50,137 nt of DNA, taken from the NCBI GenBank assembly GCA_023255875.1, contig JAGDVY010000016.1:23820-73956 (forward strand), read 5' to 3'. This document shows positions 177-43,222 of this stretch, piece after piece. The position numbers and the translations under genes were made by a program. Within the stretch, counting starts at the first letter, position 1, and the number at the start of each line of letters is the position of its first letter. The stretch is from Hydrogenobacter sp. (lineage in GTDB: Bacteria > Aquificota > Aquificia > Aquificales > Aquificaceae). Under the pieces are notes generated by a model that saw nothing but the letters and a program-made list of their open reading frames with translations, searched no databases and was not told the origin of the DNA.

Positions 177-725
177 ATGAGGTTACCAGAAAAACTTGTG
201 GAGAGGATAGCAGATAGAATTATAAAAGAGTTAGGAGAGGAGAGGGTTATAGAAGTGGAAGACCCTTATACATTTAAGAAAAAGATAATTGCGGTTTTTA
301 AAACTGCAGAAGAAGAAGAGAGAATGCTTGATGAAAAAACCAGAGAGGTGCTAAGGGAAAAACTTGACCTGCTTGAAGAAACAAGCCTTGATTACAGGAC
401 TGCGTACAGAGCGGTAAGAGCCAAGCTTGCAGAAGAAATGAACATACATACAGGCAGAAGGGAAAGAATGAACCAAATAGCCAACATGATAAAGGACCTC
501 ATTATGTCAGAAGACAGCGTAGAGATATACGAAGAACCCCACTACATAAGAAACAGGATAAGACAGATACTCATGGAAGCGGTAAAAGAAGAGGAAGAGA
601 TAGACAGAGAGGTCAGGGAAAGGATAAAGTCATACTCCAAAAGGATAGTGGAAGGCACACCCGAGTGGAATCATCTTTACAGAAGGATCTATGAGGACGC
701 ATTAAAAAGAAGAGGATTACTTTAG
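177..725 (+). CDS. DUF507 family protein with two tandem repeats
   Basis: A 182-residue, highly charged, helical protein without signal peptide or membrane segments. The C-terminal half, with R-I-K-S-Y-S-K-R-I then G-T-P-E-W-N-H-L-Y, is the signature of the DUF507 family (PF04368), whose usual members are about 90 residues. The N-terminal half repeats the same plan: residues about 1-65 (E-K-L-V-E-R-I-A-D-R-I, then E-V-E-D-P-Y, then E-K-T-R-E-V-L-R-E-K) align with residues about 92-160 (R-M-N-Q-I-A-N-M-I, then I-Y-E-E-P-H-Y, then R-E-V-R-E-R-I-K). The gene therefore appears to be an internal duplication. Function is unknown. It ends in a 4-bp tail-to-tail overlap with the FAD oxidase gene on the other strand. 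Confidence 0.85.
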   Translation: MRLPEKLVERIADRIIKELGEERVIEVEDPYTFKKKIIAVFKTAEEEERMLDEKTREVLREKLDLLEETSLDYRTAYRAVRAKLAEEMNIHTGRRERMNQIANMIKDLIMSEDSVEIYEEPHYIRNRIRQILMEAVKEEEEIDREVRERIKSYSKRIVEGTPEWNHLYRRIYEDALKRRGLL

Positions 726-2119
726 TTTTCTGGGAATAGCTTACCTGGGTTAAAGAGATTCTTTGGATCAAAGACCATCTTTATGCCCTTCATCACCTCT
801 ATTCCCACGTCACCCAATTGCCACCTTAGGAACTTCCTTTTGGTGAGTCCAACGCCGTGCTCTCCTGTTATAGAACCGTTATAACGCAAAGCCAGTTCAA
901 ACACCTCATCTACAGCTCTCTCTGCTCTTTCCTCCTCCTCTCTGTTTTTCTTATCATAGAGAAGATTCACATGAAGGTTCCCATCACCAATGTGTCCAAA
1001 GATCACCATATGAAGGTCATACTTTTTGGCTATTTCTCTGAGCTTGGGAATAGCCTCAGAGAGATAAATCCTTGGGAGTACTATATCTTCGTTTATCTTG
1101 CCCGTTTTGAGATTGGCAAGAGCTGGTCCAAGGTTTTTGCGTGCCATCCACAGCTTTTCTGCCTGAGCCTCATCTTGCGCTACTTGAACTCTTAGTCCCA
1201 TACCTGTAAGAAGCTTTTCAACTGTATTTAGGTCCTCTTTCACACCTTCCATAGAACCGTCTATTTCTATAAGTAAAAGTGCGGACACATCTTTGGGAAG
1301 ACCTACAGGTTTGTGAGCTTCTACCGCTTTTATGGCATCTGCATCCATAAACTCAAGAGCGGAGGGAAATACGCCAGAGGTCATTATCTTAGTGACTGCC
1401 CTTCCTACATCTTCAAGCCTTTCAAAGAGCACAAGTGCCGTCGCTCTTGCTTTAGGTTTGGGAATTAGCTTCAGAGTTGCGGAAGTTATAAGTCCCAAAG
1501 TGCCCTCTGAGCCTACAAAAAACTTAGTTATGTCATATCCCGCCACGTCTTTTATGACTGGGTTGCCCGTCTTTAACACCTTACCTTCCTTTATAACTGC
1601 GGTTAGCCCAAGCACATACTCCCTTGTGACACCATATTTTAAACATCTTGGACCACCTGCATTCTCCGCTATATTTCCACCTATTGTGGAGTACTTAAAG
1701 GAAGAGGGGTCTGGTGGATAAAAAAGTCCAAGTTTCTCCACATACTGTTGTAATTCGTAAGTTATAACGCCGGGTTCTACCACCGCGGTAGCGTTATCCA
1801 CATCTACACTGAACTTCTTCATCTTTTCAAAGGAGACAACCACGCCTTTTTCTAAAGTAGGTACCGCGCCACCTGTGAGTCCAGAACCCGCACCTCTTGG
1901 GAATATAGGCACCTCTTCTTGATAACATATTTCTACAAGCTTTTGTACGTCTTCTTGGGATTCGGGGAAGATCACTGCTGAAGGCACCGCCCTCTCTATA
2001 GGTATGGGTGTGGCATCATAAGAGTAGAGCTTTCTCTCTACAATGGAAGTAATAACCTTGTCTTTACCTAAAACTTCCACAAGCTTATCAACAGGTTTTT
2101 TCTTTAGCAGTCCCAACAT
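722..2119 (-). CDS. glcD: FAD-binding oxidase, GlcD / D-lactate dehydrogenase family
   Basis: A flavoprotein of 465 residues. The N-terminal FAD_binding_4 domain shows P-R-G-A-G-S-G-L-T-G-G for FAD phosphate binding and G-G-N-I-A-E-N-A-G-G-P-R. The C-terminal FAD-oxidase_C domain shows G-H-I-G-D-G-N-L-H and the closing T-G-E-H-G-V-G. Such enzymes oxidise glycolate, D-lactate or related 2-hydroxyacids. No GlcE or GlcF partner is adjacent, so substrate and electron acceptor are unclear. I chose the internal ATG at 2117-2119 (M-L-G-L-L-K-K-K) over the far ATG at 2170. A TTGCAA-17-TATATT promoter lies inside the longer reading and ends 9 nt before 2119, and the extra N-terminal residues do not resemble the family. 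Confidence 0.88.
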   Translation of the reverse strand: MLGLLKKKPVDKLVEVLGKDKVITSIVERKLYSYDATPIPIERAVPSAVIFPESQEDVQKLVEICYQEEVPIFPRGAGSGLTGGAVPTLEKGVVVSFEKMKKFSVDVDNATAVVEPGVITYELQQYVEKLGLFYPPDPSSFKYSTIGGNIAENAGGPRCLKYGVTREYVLGLTAVIKEGKVLKTGNPVIKDVAGYDITKFFVGSEGTLGLITSATLKLIPKPKARATALVLFERLEDVGRAVTKIMTSGVFPSALEFMDADAIKAVEAHKPVGLPKDVSALLLIEIDGSMEGVKEDLNTVEKLLTGMGLRVQVAQDEAQAEKLWMARKNLGPALANLKTGKINEDIVLPRIYLSEAIPKLREIAKKYDLHMVIFGHIGDGNLHVNLLYDKKNREEEERAERAVDEVFELALRYNGSITGEHGVGLTKRKFLRWQLGDVGIEVMKGIKMVFDPKNLFNPGKLFPEN

Positions 2120-2128
2120 GATTTTGTA

Positions 2129-2157
2129 AATATAAACAAAGGAATAAAACCTTGCAA
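2129..2157 (-). promoter_or_regulatory. Promoter for the GlcD-type gene, sharing its -35 with the divergent promoter
   Basis: Read on the minus strand, TTGCAA (forward 2152-2157) is followed after exactly 17 bp by TATATT (forward 2129-2134). The box ends 9 nt before the ATG at 2119, predicting a leaderless or nearly leaderless transcript. TTGCAA is its own reverse complement, and the same six bases are the -35 of the plus-strand promoter at 2152-2181. Confidence 0.6.
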
Positions 2158-2181
2158 TGATGTAAAGCATTCCTCTATAAT
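2152..2181 (+). promoter_or_regulatory. Promoter for the first SurA-like gene
   Basis: TTGCAA at 2152-2157, an 18-bp spacer and a perfect TATAAT at 2176-2181. The ATG at 2190 is 8 nt after the -10 box, so the message should be leaderless or carry only a few nucleotides. No Shine-Dalgarno sequence is present between box and start. Confidence 0.65.
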
Positions 2182-2189
2182 TTCATATC

Positions 2190-3020
2190 ATGCTTCAAAG
2201 GGTCCTTTTTCTGCTTCTTGTAGCACTTAGTCTATCCTATGGTGATGTAGTTGCCAGAATAAACTCAAAGGTGATAACTAAGGAAGAGCTCACTAATGCC
2301 TTTAATGCATACTGGCGTGAGATAATACATCTGCCTATAGCCCAAGCTACCAAAAGTGACATGAGAGAATTTCTCATAGAGTATGTAAGAAGTCAGATAA
2401 TACAACAAGAAGCTAAAAGGATGGGTATAAGTGTTAGGGAAAGCGAGCTAAGAGAATACATACAGAAGAATATTGGAAGTGAAAGATTAAGCGAAACGGT
2501 AAAAGAATTGGTAAAAACGGAAATAATTACCAACAAGATCATAGACAGGATAGCCAAAGACATAGAGGTGAATGACAGGCAGGTAATAGCCTATTACTAT
2601 CTAAACCTGAGAGATTTCAAACTACCTGCTCAAATTTTAGTAAAAAGATTTCTGGCAGATGATCTGGACACAGCCAACGAGGTGTATTATCGCCTTTCAG
2701 TAGGAAAAAGCTTGGAAAACTTAAAGTTTGTCAGAGAGGGAGAGCCCATGTGGTACTCCATACAGACCCTGCCAGAGATAGTAAAGAATCAGTTATATCC
2801 TTACGAAATAGGCAAGGTTTCAAAGCCTATAGATACTGGAGCAGGGTATCTTATACTCAAGATATTGGACAAAAGGGGAGGTGGCATCATGCCCCTTGAG
2901 TACGCAAAGCCCTTGGTAAGAGAGAGACTTTTGAAAGAAAAAAGACAGGAGGTTTTCCGAGAATGGTTTCAAAGAGTATTAAAAGACTATCGTGTGGAGT
3001 TCTTCTTCTGGCGGTTATAG
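2190..3020 (+). CDS. Periplasmic SurA/PpiC-like chaperone or peptidyl-prolyl isomerase (first of pair)
   Basis: A 276-residue secreted protein. Residues 1-18 form a signal peptide (hydrophobic L-F-L-L-L-V-A-L-S-L-S, cleavage probably after Y-G). Residues about 20-140 resemble the SurA N-terminal chaperone domain, beginning V-V-A-R-I-N-S-K-V-I-T-K-E-E-L. Residues about 145-230 are parvulin-like (Y-E-I-G-K-V-S-K-P-I, then G-A-G-Y-L-I-L-K-I) but the usual I-L-V-x-H motif is weak, so isomerase activity is uncertain. The likely role is folding of outer-membrane proteins. The last 58 nt overlap the next gene, which encodes a second protein of the same type. Confidence 0.75.
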   Translation: MLQRVLFLLLVALSLSYGDVVARINSKVITKEELTNAFNAYWREIIHLPIAQATKSDMREFLIEYVRSQIIQQEAKRMGISVRESELREYIQKNIGSERLSETVKELVKTEIITNKIIDRIAKDIEVNDRQVIAYYYLNLRDFKLPAQILVKRFLADDLDTANEVYYRLSVGKSLENLKFVREGEPMWYSIQTLPEIVKNQLYPYEIGKVSKPIDTGAGYLILKILDKRGGGIMPLEYAKPLVRERLLKEKRQEVFREWFQRVLKDYRVEFFFWRL

Positions 3021-31106: not shown

Positions 31107-33323
31107 TTAAGGAACTTCCTTTACTTTTGACTCTTCTTGTTCTATCTTTTTAAGGATCTCTGGGTCCACTATTCCTTTAAGTTCATCTTCTTCCATTCCT
31201 TTAGACTCTTCTTCCTTTACGTTGCACACACCTTGAGTACCATCAACAAAGTACATGGGTGTAGGACAGTTAACTAAAACTACGCCTTTGGGAACTGGAA
31301 AGTCTTCGTTGGGATACCTAAAAGCAGCAACGGACATAAAATCAAGCCATATGGGCAGGGCTACTTTTGCTCCTGCCATACCCTTACCCATACTTCTTTT
31401 TATGTCATAGCCCACCCACACACCAGTGACTATGTAAGGAGAGAATCCAACAAACCACGCGTCCATATAATCGTTGGTAGTGCCTGTCTTTCCTGCTATT
31501 ATCCTTCCAAAAGATCTGGCAGATACCGCTGTTCCCTCAAGGACAACAGCTCTAAGCATATCTATAAGCACTCTCACTTCCTGAGGTGGAAGCACTTGCT
31601 CACATTTGGGCTGATGTCTTTCTATTACCCTTCCATCAGGAGACACTATTTTCTCTATAAAGTAAGGTTGGCACTTTTTTCCCAAGTTGGCAAAAGCCTG
31701 AAAAGCAGAAGTAAGCTCAAGGGGTGTGACTTCTATACTACCCAAAGCCATGGAATAATAGGGTTTTAGTTCAATTCCCAGGTCCCTGCCTATCTGTATG
31801 GGCATGTCAAAGCCTATTTCAGAGAGGAGGTTCACGGTTGCAGTATTTATACTTTTTGCAAGAGCTGTCCGAAGGGTAACAGTGCTGTACTCCTGACCTT
31901 CGTAATTTTTGGGTGTCCACTCCTTTCCTGTGGAGGGATCATAGAAACTCCTAGGTGTAGCGTCTATTGGAGATACCTGCGTATAACCTTTCATGAGCGC
32001 AGCAAGGTATATGATGGGCTTTATGGCAGAACCTGGCTGGCGCTTTGCATAAACCGCTCTGTTATAGGAACTTCTCAGATAGGAATACCCTCCCACCATG
32101 GCTCTGATGGCACCCGTTTTTACATCTAAAGCCACAAGCGCACCTTGTAAATCTGGCAGTACCTCTGCACTGACTTCATCTTTCTTACTTTTCTTTACAA
32201 ACCTCACAAGCACATAATCTCCCTTCTCTATGGGCATTTTGTTTATTTGCACATTAAACTGGTAGTCTTTTACCTCCACCTTTATGTTTTTGTCATTTAC
32301 TTCTAAGACCTTGCCTATGTAAACTTTTCCAGGCTTTAGCTCCACTTTCTGCTCTTGATACCTCTTTTGAACTTCGTAAGGATCTTCTGGCAGAAAGGGT
32401 ATGCCGTTAGCCTTTGCCACCCTCATTACACCCTTCTTTAGAACTTCTTGTGCGTGCGCCTGAAGATCTTTGTCTATGGTAGTGTATACCTTATATCCAC
32501 CCGCCAAAATGACCTCCCCATAATTCTCCACAAGGTAATCCTTGACATAATCAAGGAAATAGTCCATACCGTAATATCTGTTTTCTAACTTGACCTTTAT
32601 GGGCATAGAAGAGTAGCGCTGTAGCTCTTCTTGGGTTATGTAGCCATCTTCGTACATTCTCTGAAGCACGTAGTTTCTGCGTTCTTTGACCTTTTCAGGA
32701 TTTCTAAAGGGATTGTATTTGGTAGGAGCTTTGGGAAGTCCTGCAAGAAGTGCCGCTTCATCAAGGGTGAGGTCCTTCACATGTTTTCCAAAGTATATTC
32801 TTGATGCTGCTTCAACGCCGTAAGCACCCTGCCCAAGGTATATGTAGTTTAGGTACATCTCAAGGATCTTGTCCTTACTGAAAGTCCTCTCTATTTTTAT
32901 AGCCAAAAGCATCTCTTTGAGCTTTCTTTTAAAGCTTCTTTCAGGAGTGAGGAACAGATTTCTTGCAAGCTGTTGGGTTATAGTGGATGCTCCTTGAGTT
33001 ATTTCCCTCTCTCTTAAGTTGGCTATCAAAGCCCTGAGGACTGCAACTGGATCAATACCAAAATGCCTATAAAAGTTCCTGTCTTCTGCGGATATAAAAG
33101 CCTGTCTTACATAGGGTGGAATGTCTTTTAATGGCACATAGTACCTTCTTTGAATGGCTACATCTCCAAAAACTCTGCCTTTGTAATCATAGATAAGTGT
33201 TGCTTCTGGAGGTTTCCAATCCTTTAGCTTCTCTACAGATGGAAGGTCAGAGGAAAGCACAAATATACCAAAGAGAGCACTTCCTAACAAGGCAACAAGG
33301 AGTAAAACTACAAACCTAAGCAC
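31107..33323 (-). CDS. mrcA: Class A penicillin-binding protein 1A
   Basis: A 738-residue bifunctional peptidoglycan synthase starting at a GTG. One N-terminal membrane helix (about 3-24) anchors it. The GT51 transglycosylase domain has E-D-R-N-F-Y-R-H-F-G and G-A-S-T-I-T-Q-Q-L-A-R-N. A central OB-like insert (about 330-390) is followed by the transpeptidase domain with S-A-I-K (SxxK), S-I-N (SxN) and K-T-G-T-T. The C-terminal 40 residues are acidic. The initiation region carries a minus-strand TATAAT 7 nt before the start codon. It complements FtsI (15741) and MurI (34454) in wall synthesis. Confidence 0.95.
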   Translation of the reverse strand: MLRFVVLLLVALLGSALFGIFVLSSDLPSVEKLKDWKPPEATLIYDYKGRVFGDVAIQRRYYVPLKDIPPYVRQAFISAEDRNFYRHFGIDPVAVLRALIANLREREITQGASTITQQLARNLFLTPERSFKRKLKEMLLAIKIERTFSKDKILEMYLNYIYLGQGAYGVEAASRIYFGKHVKDLTLDEAALLAGLPKAPTKYNPFRNPEKVKERRNYVLQRMYEDGYITQEELQRYSSMPIKVKLENRYYGMDYFLDYVKDYLVENYGEVILAGGYKVYTTIDKDLQAHAQEVLKKGVMRVAKANGIPFLPEDPYEVQKRYQEQKVELKPGKVYIGKVLEVNDKNIKVEVKDYQFNVQINKMPIEKGDYVLVRFVKKSKKDEVSAEVLPDLQGALVALDVKTGAIRAMVGGYSYLRSSYNRAVYAKRQPGSAIKPIIYLAALMKGYTQVSPIDATPRSFYDPSTGKEWTPKNYEGQEYSTVTLRTALAKSINTATVNLLSEIGFDMPIQIGRDLGIELKPYYSMALGSIEVTPLELTSAFQAFANLGKKCQPYFIEKIVSPDGRVIERHQPKCEQVLPPQEVRVLIDMLRAVVLEGTAVSARSFGRIIAGKTGTTNDYMDAWFVGFSPYIVTGVWVGYDIKRSMGKGMAGAKVALPIWLDFMSVAAFRYPNEDFPVPKGVVLVNCPTPMYFVDGTQGVCNVKEEESKGMEEDELKGIVDPEILKKIEQEESKVKEVP

Positions 33324-42289: not shown

Positions 42290-43222
42290 ATGATACCCGA
42301 TACAGAGCAGGAAATTATAAATCAGTACCTTAAGAAAGTAGCCAAAATACCCCTCCTGACGCCAGAGGAAGAGAAAGAGATTGCCAGGCGTGCTAAGGAA
42401 GGTGATCAGGAGGCTTTTAAAAAGCTCGTAGAGTCTAACCTCAGGTTCGTTATAAACATAGCAAAGCAGTATTTGGGATATGGACTTCCCCTTTCTGAGC
42501 TCATAGCAGCAGGAAATCATGGTCTTATAGAAGCGGCAAAGAGGTTTGATCCAGACAGAGGTGTGAAGTTTATATCCTACGCGGTATGGTGGATAAGACA
42601 GGCTATTATGCAAGCGCTATCCCAACAAACTGGTGCGGTGAGAATACCTCTAAAGCAAGCCCATGTGATAAACAGGATAGGCAGTATATACAGCAAACTA
42701 TATAGGGAGCTTGAGAGAGAGCCAACAGCAGAGGAGGTTGCAGAAGAGTACTCAAAGGAGGTCATATATAAGGAGCTTGAAAGAGAGCTTGGGAGGAAAC
42801 CCACAAAGGAAGAGGTGGAAGAAAGGCTTAAGAAAGAAGGCTTGAAGATAAGCCCCGAAGAAGTGGAAAAGTGCATGCAAGTGTGCAGGATGCCTCTGTC
42901 TTTGGATGCACCAGTAGGCGAAAACGAGGACACCTTCTTTGTTGACTTTCTGAGCCGGCACGGAACCGCAGATGTAGAGGAAAAGATCATAACCGAAGTG
43001 CTTGAAAAAGAAATAGAAGACATGTTAGACAAACTGCCAGAAAAAGAAAGGAGAGTGATAGAGCTACGCTTTGGCTTAAGAGGTGAAGAGCCAAGGACCC
43101 TAAGAGAGATAGGAGACATACTCAACATATCAAGGGAGAGAGTAAGACAGTTAGAAACCAGAGCCCTTAGAAAACTCAGAAACATGGCTATAAAGAAACA
43201 CCTAAAAGACTTCCTGAGCTAA
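42290..43222 (+). CDS. Sigma-70 family factor (group 1/2 type) with enlarged region 3
   Basis: A 310-residue sigma factor without region 1.1. Region 1.2 is near residue 10-40; region 2 includes N-L-R-F-V-I-N-I-A, L-I-A-A-G-N-H-G-L-I-E-A and S-Y-A-V-W-W-I-R-Q-A-I (2.3-2.4, about 95-106), which is nearly canonical for TATAAT recognition. Region 4.2 is L-R-E-I-G-D-I-L-N-I-S-R-E-R-V-R-Q. Between, residues 137-152 and 160-179 are two similar modules (L-E-R-E-P-T-A-E-E-V and L-G-R-K-P-T-K-E-E-V), where region 3 normally has one. It resembles RpoS/RpoD-type factors; whether it is the primary sigma is unclear, as a primary RpoD is usually longer. Confidence 0.88.
   Translation: MIPDTEQEIINQYLKKVAKIPLLTPEEEKEIARRAKEGDQEAFKKLVESNLRFVINIAKQYLGYGLPLSELIAAGNHGLIEAAKRFDPDRGVKFISYAVWWIRQAIMQALSQQTGAVRIPLKQAHVINRIGSIYSKLYRELEREPTAEEVAEEYSKEVIYKELERELGRKPTKEEVEERLKKEGLKISPEEVEKCMQVCRMPLSLDAPVGENEDTFFVDFLSRHGTADVEEKIITEVLEKEIEDMLDKLPEKERRVIELRFGLRGEEPRTLREIGDILNISRERVRQLETRALRKLRNMAIKKHLKDFLS

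Follow-up and report, generated by a model that had tools for sequence, protein, structure and literature searches.

Two back-to-back promoters in a Hydrogenobacter genome may well share a single palindromic hexamer, TTGCAA, as the −35 element for both directions of transcription. These promoters, which would be of the type read by the housekeeping sigma factor (sigma-A), would together fill the 70-bp gap between two divergent genes: one for a GlcD-type FAD-linked oxidase and the other for a SurA-like periplasmic chaperone. We arrived at this reading from the sequence of the junction, from its conservation in relatives and from the recurrence of the same architecture elsewhere in the Aquificaceae. 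The junction lies near one end of the window, a 50,137-nucleotide stretch of a Hydrogenobacter contig, to which all coordinates below refer.

Organization of the junction

The junction has the following features.

722–2119, minus strand: gene for a GlcD-type FAD-linked oxidase (Pfam FAD_binding_4 and FAD-oxidase_C), starting at ATG 2119
2129–2134, minus strand: leftward −10 box TATATT, 9 nt before ATG 2119
2135–2151, no strand: left spacer, 17 bp, with length kept at 16–17 bp and sequence unconserved
2152–2157, no strand: palindromic TTGCAA, candidate −35 element in both directions, identical in 5/5 Hydrogenobacter genomes
2158–2175, plus strand: right spacer, 18 bp, of which the first 13 bp (TGATGTAAAGCAT) are conserved; possible additional regulatory site
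2176–2181, plus strand: rightward −10 box TATAAT, 8 nt before ATG 2190
2190–3020, plus strand: gene for a SurA-like periplasmic chaperone/rotamase (Pfam SurA_N_2/3 and Rotamase_2)

Direct reading and a promoter scan agree that TTGCAA at 2152–2157 is its own reverse complement, and that the positions, the spacers of 18 and 17 bp and the distances of 8 and 9 nt to the start codons are those given in the original prediction. The hexamer matches TTGACA at 4/6 positions in each direction which, with spacers of 17 and 18 bp, yields promoter totals of 9/12 and 10/12. Both directions thereby have the TTGACA-like hexamer 16–18 bp before a −10 box that defines a sigma-70 promoter.

The start of the glcD-like gene had been placed at 2119, not 2170, on the basis of promoter geometry. 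The position is correct, although the argument for it now comes from relatives: most glcD orthologues in the family align from the methionine encoded at 2119. A longer frame from ATG 2170 was considered and rejected: a stop codon breaks it in G027, and G028 carries a frameshift.

Leaderless-type starts on both sides

Leaderless genes have been described as carrying a TANNNT box, the first T of which lies around 12 bp upstream of the start codon (Zheng 2011, PMC3160421). At the junction, this T lies 14 bp before the SurA-like start and 15 bp before the glcD start, and neither ATG has an evident Shine–Dalgarno sequence; TTTCATATC and TTTACAAAATC stand before the two ATGs. The two features used by Zheng 2011, the TANNNT box and the absent Shine–Dalgarno sequence, are therefore found on both sides and, with a TATAAT-like box at approximately the distance seen in Aquificae, the locus is an ordinary member of this class in each direction.

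The −10 boxes are retained well beyond the genus. In other genera, where the two genes have different neighbours, 22/24 orthologues of the SurA-like gene and 24/25 of glcD retain a TATAAT-like box 4–11 nt (mostly 6–8 nt) upstream of the start codon. Within Hydrogenobacter, the rightward TATAAT is conserved at 6/6 positions in all five genomes, and the leftward TATATT of this genome is replaced by a perfect TATAAT in the aligned sequences of G027 and G028.

A simple gene caller was run on 1.248 Mb of the 1.25-Mb draft genome, and TATAAT-like boxes (matches of at least 5/6) were counted before 450 first-in-unit genes. The boxes peak 7–9 nt before the starts (38, 50 and 30 of the 450 genes at the three positions, over a background of around 8 per position), and G028, a closed genome of 1,743,135 bp, shows the same peak across its first 800 kb. 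This genome-wide peak agrees with the published estimate that leaderless genes make up around a quarter of the total in the two Aquificae genomes carrying the signal (PMC3160421). Another leaderless-type start lies at 164–177 of the window, where a TATAAT precedes the ATG of a DUF507 gene (at 177) by a few bases.

Family-wide conservation of the −10 boxes and their position on the genome-wide peak thus support divergent leaderless-type promoters for both genes. This is the firmer half of the original proposal of two divergent leaderless promoters with one −35 element; the sharing of that element is likely rather than proven. Among the papers searched, none gave transcription start-site data for Hydrogenobacter.

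Conservation of the palindromic hexamer

Among the loci examined, the divergent order of glcD and the SurA-like gene is confined to Hydrogenobacter. Alignment of five Hydrogenobacter genomes bears out the expectation that relatives keeping this gene order would retain the palindrome and its spacing: TTGCAA is unchanged at 6/6 positions in all five, and the left and right spacers measure 17 and 18 bp in three genomes, 16 and 17 bp in G027, and 16 and 18 bp in G028. Identity at fourfold degenerate sites of glcD is 0.36–0.44 between three Hydrogenobacter lineages, which places neutral sites near saturation, and the left spacer resembles neutral sites in being identical to G027 and G028 at 5/16 positions. 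Because these sites have diverged so far, we consider TTGCAA to be under constraint. The right spacer, too, has changed less than neutral sites, with 13/17 positions identical between G000 and G028 and 10/17 between G000 and G027.

As a −35 element alone leaves the conservation of the right spacer unexplained, the chief competing explanation that we retain is a site for a regulator. Both promoters would then be driven mainly by their −10 boxes, and TTGCAA would be the edge of a site of around 19 bp (TTGCAATGATGTAAAGCAT) that serves the SurA-like side or both, with its fit as a −35 element secondary. The block conserved past TTGCAA between near-saturated lineages is what such a site predicts, and leaderless promoters in this organism generally lack a −35 element (see below). 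However, a genome search for TTGCAATGATGTAAAGCAT as a repeated operator motif returned no second copy above the control of shuffled queries, and that motif was rejected; the internal dyad of the block is weak and is lost in G027. A regulator site also accounts neither for the constant length of the left spacer nor for the recurrence of this architecture at unrelated junctions whose spacer sequences differ. We regard this explanation as unlikely, although it is the one that best survives beside a shared −35 element.

Use of −35 elements in this organism

When 306 leaderless promoters were aligned on their −10 boxes, almost no −35 signal emerged. TTG was present at a spacer of 17 bp in 10/306 (background of around 5), TTGACA at a threshold of at least 4/6 was not enriched upstream of the 306 boxes, and the idea of a −35 motif common to leaderless promoters throughout the genome was accordingly discarded. 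These promoters have a modest TGn extension (52/306) and a T/A-rich pattern immediately 5′ of the −10 box. In the tRNA promoters of the same genome, TTG is found at spacers of 17–18 bp in 10/31, over a background of around 0.5 per spacer, and one of these promoters is a perfect TTGACA-17-TATAAT. The region 4.2 helix of RpoD (contig C6) reads TRERIRQIE, which we take to be the sequence of the same helix in E. coli RpoD. A second sigma-70 family gene, besides RpoD, is located at around 42290–43222 of the window (an open frame of 313 amino acids with Sigma70_r4 above the cut-off).

A further reading, which we consider improbable, is that TTGCAA acts as the −35 element of one promoter only, the other being driven by its −10 box and the second fit being coincidental. 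In genus g6, glcD keeps a TTG 16–17 bp upstream of its −10 box in ten loci, and SurA-like promoters outside Hydrogenobacter have none at spacers of 16–18 bp (0/22), both of which would single out the glcD side; conversely, the conserved block extends to the right only, which would single out the SurA-like side. Use by one side alone is at odds with spacers that are 16–18 bp in both directions in all five genomes, and both −10 boxes, on the glcD and the SurA-like side, lack the TGn extension that could stand in for a −35 element. A hexamer shared by both promoters could plausibly have arisen from a TTG −35 element that first served glcD and the other face of which was later used by the SurA-like gene.

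Recurrence in the Aquificaceae

The architecture around TTGCAA appears to be rare yet recurring in the family. In 64 Aquificaceae genomes, we looked for pairs of perfect divergent TATAATs with TTGCAA or TTGWCAA between them, the latter word being TTGACA on one strand overlapping TTGTCA on the other. Eight places were found, compared with around 0.5 expected (places were counted by hand from the matches listed), and the matches sit at gene starts or divergent junctions.

TTGCAA accounts for four of the places, with zero matches to the reversed pattern: the glcD/SurA-like junction in G027 and G028, and the junction between a tRNA-Ser gene and a DEAD-box helicase gene in G025 and G026. At the latter divergence (L149 and L150), the core is a 12-bp palindrome, TTTTTGCAAAAA, with TATAAT 17 and 16 bp away. 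The genome studied here has the same tRNA-Ser, but its upstream sequence differs from that of L149 and L150.

The four TTGWCAA places comprise the rubrerythrin promoter with three different neighbours and the dnaJ promoter in G033. In G039, rubrerythrin faces a HisZ/HisS-like gene and in G057 a gene for a small protein; its counterpart in G043 is a short leaderless-type start, beyond which lies a hisG-like gene; the names rubrerythrin, HisZ/HisS-like, hisG-like and dnaJ are our own assignments from reading the translations. The core of the rubrerythrin promoter, TTGACAAATGA...AAGTTT.CATATAAT, is kept in the three genomes (L194, L195 and L196), and the divergent neighbour, different in each, has a TATAAT beyond the same −35 word.

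Measured against all WWSSWW words in the same frame, TTGCAA holds 4/21 places (0.37 expected, P = 4e-4); against all WWSWSWW words in the same frame, TTGWCAA holds 4/11 (0.15 expected, P = 1e-5). With orthologous places counted once, the values are P = 0.04 for TTGCAA and P = 0.007 for TTGWCAA.

At the junction itself, a consensus match alone is without weight, because a consensus promoter scan of 6 kb gave 11 promoter-like sites and shuffled sequence gave 10.9. When the interval is fixed at 41 bp, the probability that some hexamer agrees with TTGACA at 4/6 or more positions on each strand, with usable spacers, is approximately 0.011, and TTGCAA is the only one among the 24 palindromic hexamers tested that has the double geometry anywhere in the genome. 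That the palindrome and its spacings arose by chance in AT-rich DNA, as the equality of promoter-like matches in the region with the shuffle mean might suggest, is very improbable in the face of conservation across three near-saturated lineages and the family-wide enrichment of the architecture.

Divergent pairs elsewhere in the genome

Sharing a −35 element is the exception in this genome; divergent leaderless genes more often share a promoter through −10 boxes that overlap or are adjacent. There are 175 divergent pairs, 52 of which have a leaderless-type −10 box on both sides, and in approximately 36 of those 52 the two boxes overlap or lie within 21 bp. Where the start codons are 14–60 bp apart, both boxes are present in 22/63 divergent pairs, compared with 2.0 in shuffles (maximum of 6); the corresponding count for short divergent pairs in G028 is 13/40, compared with 1.05. 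Such short pairs resemble the shared −10 bidirectional promoters of other bacteria (PMC10268837), with leaderless-type genes on both sides. At 33323/33361 of the window, and in around 35 other pairs, start codons are approximately 11–51 bp apart and the leaderless-type −10 boxes overlap or nearly touch.

Mechanism and significance

Under the shared-element reading, each mRNA would start at, or around 3–4 nt from, its ATG, directed by its own −10 box 8–9 nt upstream, and region 4 of the sigma factor would read the palindromic TTGCAA as a −35 element from either strand. One polymerase at a time would occupy the junction and, after clearance, either direction would again be usable. We therefore do not find support for the earlier idea that the two genes are mutually exclusive switches, as polymerase leaves on promoter clearance and competition at E. 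coli promoters with a shared −10 element is negligible at the basal level: lowering one direction gave no gain to the other, and competition arose only when one side was strong or activated (PMC12825309). The likely effect would be mild mutual interference, which should be weak because the −35 element matches at only 4/6 positions each way and the left −10 box is imperfect in this genome.

Bidirectional bacterial promoters are described, in PMC10268837 (citing Warman 2021) and PMC12825309, as having a symmetric shared −10 element and divergent starts 7–25 bp apart. As at those promoters, symmetric DNA would let polymerase bind either way, with divergent transcripts and possible steric competition; however, the shared element here would be the −35, and the −10 boxes are 41 bp apart and the predicted starts around 65–70 bp apart, which is not the arrangement of overlapping −10 boxes and closely spaced starts. 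In classical back-to-back divergent promoters, two sigma-70 promoters face away from each other with overlapping −35 regions and polymerase footprints, whereas at this junction both −35 hexamers would be the same six base pairs and the transcripts would be of the leaderless type. Our literature search for divergent promoters sharing a −35 element found none in the papers covered.

More tentatively, bidirectional promoters centred on a symmetric −35 element (TTGCAA or TTGWCAA) may have evolved repeatedly in the Aquificaceae, whereby a gene with a TTG-type −35 element gains a divergent neighbour through a TATAAT 16–18 bp on the far side; the two genes would share a sigma region 4 contact, and their expression would be coupled by polymerase competition. 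Promoter symmetry is already known to give bidirectional transcription in bacteria via the −10 element. If the reading offered here is true, a symmetric −35 element used both ways would add another route to bidirectionality, one that differs in its geometry. This compact thermophile genome, in which divergent genes are often 15–50 bp apart with leaderless-type −10 boxes that overlap or almost meet, is a good natural system for the joint study of polymerase interference and leaderless translation.
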